Below are positions 12,771 to 14,433 of a DNA stretch of 47,557 nucleotides, in pieces. Numbering within the stretch: the first letter of the stretch is position 1; every line of letters begins with the position of its first letter. This DNA is from Acidobacteriota bacterium (GTDB lineage Bacteria; Acidobacteriota; Holophagae; Thermotomaculales; Thermotomaculaceae), in contig JAADGL010000022.1 of assembly GCA_013152385.1 (NCBI GenBank), positions 1 to 47,557 of the forward strand, in the 5' to 3' direction. The translations under genes were made by a program, and so were the position numbers. The notes under the pieces were generated by a model. It was not told the DNA's origin and did not search any database. It worked only from the letters and a program-made list of their open reading frames with translations.

Positions 12771-12853
12771 TCAGAACTAATGGATATTGGAAAAAGAGGG
12801 AATGGCCAATCTCCCTTTCTTGCGTGCATGCGCCTTCATTTACTCTTTTTCCT

Positions 12854-13810
12854 CTATTTCTCTGTTATTTTAGAAATCGGAAGTTTGAGGATAGACTCAT
12901 TGTCTTTATCAAAAAGTATTAAAATATTATTGATTATACCCGCCAATGCTTTCACGCTGTCCTTGAATGCTACCTTTGTGATTTTCTTGTTTTCTATTCG
13001 ATATAGAAATGTCGTGTTTTTATGGGTGGATGAATCTGTCTGCACATAGGTCAGGAATATGATATTTTGATGTGTTTTCATTGAATTGAAATATCCCAGG
13101 GTTTCAAGTGTAACAGTGTCGCCCTCTACGCTGATTTTTCCTTCATTTTTCACAGGGAGTCTTTGTCTGTCAATAATTTCCCCGTTCTCACGGATTATGG
13201 TAATTGTTCCCTTATCATTCAGCATAATGAAATCACCATTTTGTTTTATGCAATAAAGATTATTAGACCAAAACTTGGCCCCATTGATGGTTCGGACAAA
13301 AGATAACCGACGCGTTACAACTGTTGTTTTTATCACTTTTCTTGATTGTTCATCAATCTGCTGTGCAAATGTAATGGGTGGGAATCTACCGTTATTCTGG
13401 AAAAAAACAACGATTCCACCATTCTTTTTCTCTATTGTCGTAATGGGTTTTCTAAATTGAATTTCACCCTTGAAAACGCCGTTAAAATTGTAGAAATTTA
13501 TTTTTCTTTTTCTTTTATCGCAAACAACAAGAGTGTCCTGAAAAAGTAAAATAGCTCCTGGATTGTTGAAAAAATTATTACTTAGTTCTCCAGGACCCTG
13601 GCCAATTGAGAGGGGAATGCTTCTGGTTACATTCTTGTAATTGGCAGATAGAATCTTCAGGCCGCGTTTTCCACCATCCAGAACCACTGTTGTGCCATCG
13701 CAACAGTAAACATAAAGAGGGTATGAAATTTCCCTGGGAAGCGCTATTTCGCTTTGACATTTCACTGTGACACTCATCAGCAATACGGTACAAAATATTA
13801 AATATTTCAC
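12854..13810 (-). CDS. Secreted six-bladed beta-propeller protein
   Basis: A 318-residue protein starting at GTG 13810, with AGGAG ten bases upstream. It has a signal sequence (KYLIFCTVLLMSVTVKC; Cys18 could be lipidated) and the family motif SIGQGPGEL at about residue 70. That motif is shared with the propeller lipoprotein at 8771-9940, although overall identity looks low. Codon use is markedly more AT-rich than in neighbouring genes, suggesting a different origin. It lies 24 bases downstream of a cysteine-rich mini-gene on the same strand. In Bacteroidota, propellers of this broad class are often paired with tiny secreted peptides, which makes the pairing notable. Function is unknown. Confidence 0.75.
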   Translation of the reverse strand: MKYLIFCTVLLMSVTVKCQSEIALPREISYPLYVYCCDGTTVVLDGGKRGLKILSANYKNVTRSIPLSIGQGPGELSNNFFNNPGAILLFQDTLVVCDKRKRKINFYNFNGVFKGEIQFRKPITTIEKKNGGIVVFFQNNGRFPPITFAQQIDEQSRKVIKTTVVTRRLSFVRTINGAKFWSNNLYCIKQNGDFIMLNDKGTITIIRENGEIIDRQRLPVKNEGKISVEGDTVTLETLGYFNSMKTHQNIIFLTYVQTDSSTHKNTTFLYRIENKKITKVAFKDSVKALAGIINNILILFDKDNESILKLPISKITEK

Positions 13811-13834
13811 TCTATTTACTCCTGATTGATATTC

Positions 13835-13957
13835 CTATCCCAAAGCACCGCAACAGGGGGGCACACAGCATTCTCCACAACTCATATTAACGGCACATCC
13901 ACAAGCTTTCCATCCATTACAAGTTATACAACATTTCCCACCAACGCCAGTTGCCAT
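13835..13957 (-). CDS. Cysteine-rich 40-residue peptide with a Gly-Gly motif
   Basis: A 40-codon frame from ATG 13957 encodes a peptide with ten cysteines in its last 33 residues. The cysteines fall in CC, C-x2-C-type and CxC spacings (KCCITCNGWKACGC, then SCGECCVPPCCGALG). Just before the first Cys is TGVGG, resembling a double-glycine leader-cleavage site. The frame stays open upstream to about 14071 and reads IKVIEILGIENTPNRIKGF, which could be leader sequence, but I see no ATG, GTG or TTG there and no good ribosome-binding site for ATG 13957. So the start is uncertain, and a frameshifted or decayed longer precursor is possible. It could be a RiPP-like or disulfide-rich secreted peptide, or a metal binder. 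It lies 24 bases before the propeller gene. Confidence 0.5.
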   Translation of the reverse strand: MATGVGGKCCITCNGWKACGCAVNMSCGECCVPPCCGALG

Positions 13958-14433
13958 ATTTGTTTTTTCAAAACCCTTTATTCTGTTTGGTGTATTTTCT
14001 ATTCCTAAAATTTCAATTACCTTTATGTCGGAAGTTGGTTGGGAATGACCGGTCCTAAGAATTCGTTTTGATTATCAAAATATTTTTTAATTCATGATCT
14101 CCATTCAAAATAGGAGTGATGCTCTATAAAAAAATGTGTGTGTTGATTTTTTTAATAATTAAAGCATGGCCTTTTGCTTTTCTTGTCCGCGGTCTCTGTC
14201 TTTCCAACGGCGTGTCTTTCTCTGTCTTGAACACTCTCTCTTCTGGCGAAAAAAAAGGAAATGTAGGATAATCGGAGAATCGGCATAAGGAGGGGATATG
14301 GGTTACACGATACCTGTGGATCGGAACTTTATGGGATGTGGGGATGGGCGTTGGAAAGAGAAGGAATGATTGATGTTATGATTTTTCTTTTCCCTGTTTC
14401 AACACCTGTGCCGATTGTTGGCAGGGGCCGGTT
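13958..14433. other. Intergenic region between the Cys-rich peptide and dinB
   Basis: About 475 AT-rich bases without a supported gene apart from the open extension of the Cys-rich frame (to about 14071, minus strand). On the plus strand an extended -10, TGTTATGAT, lies at 14374-14382, with TTGGAA at 14351-14356 spaced rather long (20 bases). It is a possible dinB promoter. I see no tRNA or strong hairpin. Confidence 0.3.

Follow-up and report, generated by a model that had tools for sequence, protein, structure and literature searches.

The minus strand of the window (the whole stretch of 47,557 nucleotides analysed here) encodes, directly upstream of a secreted beta-propeller gene, a ten-cysteine tail that sequence comparison confirms as a genuine, long-conserved polypeptide module with Cys positions under selection. 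The frame carrying this tail is probably the 3' end of a secreted-protein gene, i.e. a 5'-truncated remnant that arrived together with the propeller gene. The features of the region are as follows.

12780 to 14430, no strand assigned: low-GC (38%) segment between lexA and dinB, missing from three congeners (borders approximate).
12797 to 12816, minus strand: terminator-like hairpin downstream of the propeller gene (from a consensus scan only).
12854 to 13810, minus strand: secreted beta-propeller of 318 codons, with a GTG start and AGGAG at 13823–13819, 8 bases ahead of it.
13835 to 13957, minus strand: ATG-initiated frame of 40 codons plus TAG stop, containing the tail, with neither a signal peptide nor a well-placed ribosome-binding site.
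13838 to 13936, minus strand: ten-Cys C-terminal tail module, KCCITCNGWKACGCAVNMSCGECCVPPCCGALG, recognised by profile matches, shuffles and Cys conservation.
13958 to 14071, minus strand: stretch upstream of MATG over which the frame stays open, with no standard start codon; it contains DIKVIEILGIENTP.

As listed above, the tail lies in a longer open frame, which runs from 14071 to 13838 (78 codons, no internal stop) and ends with TAG at 13837–13835. Read from the ATG at 13957, it gives the 40-residue MATGVGGKCCITCNGWKACGCAVNMSCGECCVPPCCGALG, whose final 33 residues hold 10 Cys, the highest density among all frames of the window (the runner-up has 8). No in-frame ATG, GTG or TTG was found upstream of MATG, the sole purine-rich candidate for a ribosome-binding site before MATG is about 16 bases away, and a scan for small ORFs with a Shine-Dalgarno sequence and a signal peptide did not recover the frame at 13835–13957. 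The frame stop and the propeller GTG (13810) are separated by 24 bases, in which a consensus scan found no terminator-like site. The initial annotation, made from the letters alone, had described this frame, its 10 Cys, the absent start codon and the 24-base gap, and all of these were confirmed on the sequence. The frame has no match in NCBIfam or Pfam (PF14055 included), and an AlphaFold2 (AF2) model of the lone 78-residue frame from a single sequence was uninformative (pLDDT 50).

We searched 396 genomes of the phylum with a DNA pattern for the CCxxPCCG end. The pattern gave three clear homologues (in G109, G192 and G305), the tail of G109 and G192 reading RCCVTCNGWTACACAVxMGCDSCCCNPCCGIL. 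With profiles, we then found a second and a third copy in G305, two copies in G487, and single copies in G457, G483 and G501. Each of these ten tails terminates an ORF; the weakest matches have E-values of about 1e-2 to 1e-4, and their assignment is based on the common Cys spacing and the C-terminal position. The window shows the family spacing (CC[VI]xC, C, C, CGxCC) at its C-terminus, and profile A2 run against the window's own genome found the tail with an E-value of 1.6e-16. Using a profile of the ten tails built without the window, the window core scored 72.1 bits. The highest score among 2000 composition-preserving shuffles was 38.0 bits, and the second-ranking frame of the 1309 in the window reached 11.1. 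A Cys-rich frame that arose by chance had to be considered, as such shadow frames are common and many were returned by our pattern scans; this difference in bits, together with the retention of every Cys while synonymous sites are saturated, leaves chance with next to no credibility. Between the window and G109 cores, there are about 19.7 synonymous differences over 17.7 sites (saturated) and 17.3 nonsynonymous differences over 72.3 sites (0.24 per site); all 10 Cys are kept, 8 of them with TGT in one core and TGC in the other. The G109 and G192 cores are closer to each other (dN 0.025, dS 0.44). The comparison of nonsynonymous and synonymous changes that the initial annotation had proposed thus points to selection at the Cys positions, given saturated synonymous sites with all 10 Cys kept.

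A single-sequence search of 61 relatives gave noise only; tblastn-type scans with the window peptide found no homologue in viral contigs or in 84,980 species genomes, and nothing credible in plasmids (best E-value 2). The homologous tails likewise had no matches in plasmids and phages. A pattern scan of viral contigs returned 19 matches, which were low-complexity shadow frames and were rejected. Profile A4 matched no chain in the PDB, and the tail-family members tested against Pfam, NCBIfam and PHROGs had no family match (G487:C17 and G457 were searched against PHROGs only, and G483, G487:C22, G501, G305:C19 and G305:C36 were left out of these scans). A text search of the available papers found neither the motif strings nor the word NVEALA.

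In other Acidobacteriota, the homologous tail lies at or very close to the C-terminal end of proteins that are about 115–265 residues long. In most of these carriers, a Sec signal peptide comes first, and the N-domain behind it appears rich in beta-strands, judging by its sequence; two (G501 and G305:C36) have a membrane segment, with a coiled region as well in G501 (signal peptides and anchors were called from the sequence, without a predictor). In their general layout, the carriers begin with a Sec signal peptide or membrane anchor, continue with an N-domain of roughly 100 residues and a linker, and end with CC[VI]TCxGxxxCGCxVxxxCGxCC(xxxCCG). The number of Cys per tail is 6, 8, 10 or 12, hence even in all 11 tails (the window and ten homologues), and the variable Cys come and go in twos. 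Such even counts suggest a disulfide module, and the tail may be disulfide-bonded: paired, even Cys are expected from disulfide pairing outside the cytoplasm, though they could also reflect metal binding. We also observed that G305 encodes three Cys-tail paralogues (L108, L137 and L148) with 10, 8 and 6 Cys; two of their carriers are secreted and the third is membrane-anchored.

These carriers bear on the proposal of the initial annotation that the frame encodes an exported RiPP or bacteriocin-type precursor with a Gly-Gly leader. The window does resemble Gly-Gly bacteriocins and RiPP precursors in having GVGG immediately before its Cys core, and GG is found at the same place in G501. That is, however, one of ten homologous tails, so GG does not mark a leader boundary. 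Sec signals or membrane anchors, together with folded or coiled N-domains, are found in most carriers, and inspection of the translated frames next to the members revealed no recognisable modification enzyme, immunity gene or peptidase-type exporter. The window frame also lacks an NCBIfam or Pfam match. The double-glycine reading is contradicted by the domain architecture, and we consider it highly improbable. Alternatively, the short frame with its ten Cys codons, which stops 24 bases ahead of the propeller start, could be a leader that senses Cys-tRNA supply and controls translation of the propeller, and in a second genome (G008, see below) a tail even overlaps the propeller start. Such an attenuator is very unlikely, considering that the encoded residues have homologues in a protein module at unrelated loci, that the spacing and several non-Cys residues are conserved, and that the gap has no terminator-like site.

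For the propeller, the AF2 model is all-beta with about 24 strands (pLDDT 72, pTM 0.71), and a Foldseek search of the PDB matched propellers (best E-value 4.5e-9), an exported Bacteroides protein and NHL domains among them. The strand count of the model indicates a putative six-bladed propeller. It shares the propeller fold with Pfam DUF5128 (PF17170), TolB_like (PF15869) and NHL, but differs from these families in being below Pfam sequence detection; a GQGPGE motif is common to it and its homologues. Among 93 genomes of the class, one clear homologue was found (G008, 23% identity, E-value 7.2e-31), and among 396 genomes of the phylum one weaker homologue (G384; L022, 6963–9573), which adjoins a B12-binding-type radical SAM gene and is near an ABC exporter. 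Ahead of the G008 propeller, and on its strand, is a frame ending in FCSGNKCCVEPCCGIL and a stop codon. This tail is short and decayed, with about half of its Cys lost; it overlaps the propeller start, matches CCVxPCCGxL and ends with CCVEPCCGIL. Since its DNA alignment score was reached by 3 of 2000 shuffles, and its contig (JALWHA010000297.1, from an Acidobacteria MAG) has 1.68x coverage, an arrangement of tail and propeller common to the window and G008 is probable on these alignments rather than proven. The initial annotation had looked to homologues in the phylum with conserved Cys spacing upstream of propeller genes: the spacing is indeed conserved, but the tail lies upstream of a propeller in two genomes only (the window and G008), one of which has the degraded copy.

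The propeller and the tail are on the same low-GC segment. In three congeners (G001, G002 and G003) lexA adjoins dinB and the segment is absent. The GC content at third codon positions (GC3) is 0.36 in the propeller gene, compared to 0.55–0.59 in lexA, dinB, dnaK and another neighbouring gene, and the sister-genus stretches have 29–33% GC. Based on the low GC, the low propeller GC3, the congeners without the segment and the sister-genus stretches, the segment likely came laterally from a low-GC source; no convincing flanking repeats of a mobile element were found. A Pfam search of the window neighbours identified lexA, dinB, AcrB-type pumps, hrcA and chaperones.

The explanation we favor is that the tail and propeller genes would have entered together on this segment of about 1.65 kb. 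For the ancestral pair, when intact, we conjecture that both proteins were exported, with the tail disulfide-bonded outside the cytoplasm, and that the propeller served as physical partner or scaffold of the Cys-tail protein. In the window copy, the tail would have been preserved, and with it probably the final strand of the N-domain, while the signal peptide, a usable start and the bulk of the N-domain would be gone. Since a signal peptide, an N-domain and a start are all missing from the window frame, a truncated remnant is the most likely explanation, and the missing start would reflect 5' truncation rather than a rare start codon; the intact tail implies that the cut may be recent. The suspicion of decay raised in the initial annotation also looks right. 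A full-length profile run over the three frames upstream to dinB recognised the tail alone, and the 360 bases between the frame and dinB hold no N-domain remnant, start or signal peptide. By eye only, DIKVIEILGIENTP resembles the last N-domain strand of other carriers (FDIELIGIEEI in G487, LDVELVETKKV in G305); the likeness of DIKVIEILGIENT to the N-domain was also seen by eye and was not significant in a profile search. Two observations speak against a remnant. A frame of 78 codons without an internal stop and with a perfect tail is not expected of a long-dead gene, and the G008 copy is likewise short on its 5' side, with two independent truncations at the same place being less likely than one functional short form.

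The latter observations would fit a complete tiny gene, in which translation of the Cys tail alone begins at MATG or at a rare AUU/AUA codon, and the product acts as a free partner or ligand of the propeller. The open frame, the intact tail and the past selection are consistent with this, as are the short tail before the G008 propeller and a position and gap that resemble the real peptide–propeller pairs of the family (described below). On the other hand, there is no well-placed ribosome-binding site, no version of the frame has a signal peptide, most homologues look like exported C-terminal tails, and the G008 copy lacks about half of the Cys; we therefore regard a tiny gene as unlikely. It is a still more doubtful proposition that the tail was freed from its carrier, became independently translated, and was recruited as a propeller partner in two diverged lineages through a non-standard start or coupling. 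We retain the truncated remnant as the best explanation of the window frame.

In Bacteroidota, NVEALA peptides (PF14055) pair with six-bladed propellers. With a scan for small ORFs that have a ribosome-binding site, a signal-like start and Cys, applied to 159 kb of sequence at loci of this family and of G384, we were able to identify seven small secreted Cys peptides, six of which are directly upstream of propeller genes (gap of -25 to 51 bases); the remaining one is followed by a thioredoxin-like gene in the same cluster. The scanned loci were mostly picked for propellers, so no background rate can be derived from these counts. The pairs are as follows.

L068 (contig C46, the window's own genome), peptide 381–578 and propeller 629–1657: a better example of a pair than the window.
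L072, 1276–1524, 3809–4063 and 5491–5706: three small secreted Cys peptides, every one immediately followed by a propeller gene.
L070, 4589–4876, and L020, 3418–3699: small secreted Cys peptides directly upstream of propeller genes.

The five peptides of L072, L070 and L020 come from three related genomes. L020 (1–7479, from G008) also contains ABC transporter genes, three propellers, two secreted Cys peptides and a thioredoxin-like protein, which suggests a dedicated export or folding locus.

The paired peptides are unlike the window tail, and none of those searched against Pfam fell into a family. For comparison, L077 is a clear NVEALA–propeller pair, in which PF14055 was detected as a positive control (E-value 1e-12). 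The layout of NVEALA pairs is the same as that of the six Cys peptide–propeller pairs of the family. The window is similar in having a small Cys-containing polypeptide frame immediately upstream of a secreted propeller; it differs in lacking a signal peptide, the NVEALA motif and a PF14055 match, and its Cys module is elsewhere the C-terminal tail of larger proteins. The analogy with Bacteroidota drawn in the initial annotation is thus sound for the family, where six pairs with other peptides have this layout, whereas the window peptide is no relative of the pairing type, and the window holds a different, probably broken member.

The Cys-tail module went unrecognised by the Pfam, NCBIfam and PHROGs searches run here, and it occurs on exported-looking Acidobacteriota proteins of several architectures, with Cys gained and lost in pairs. 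The peptide–propeller pairing known from Bacteroidota recurs in this acidobacterial family, which makes the partnership testable outside Bacteroidota.
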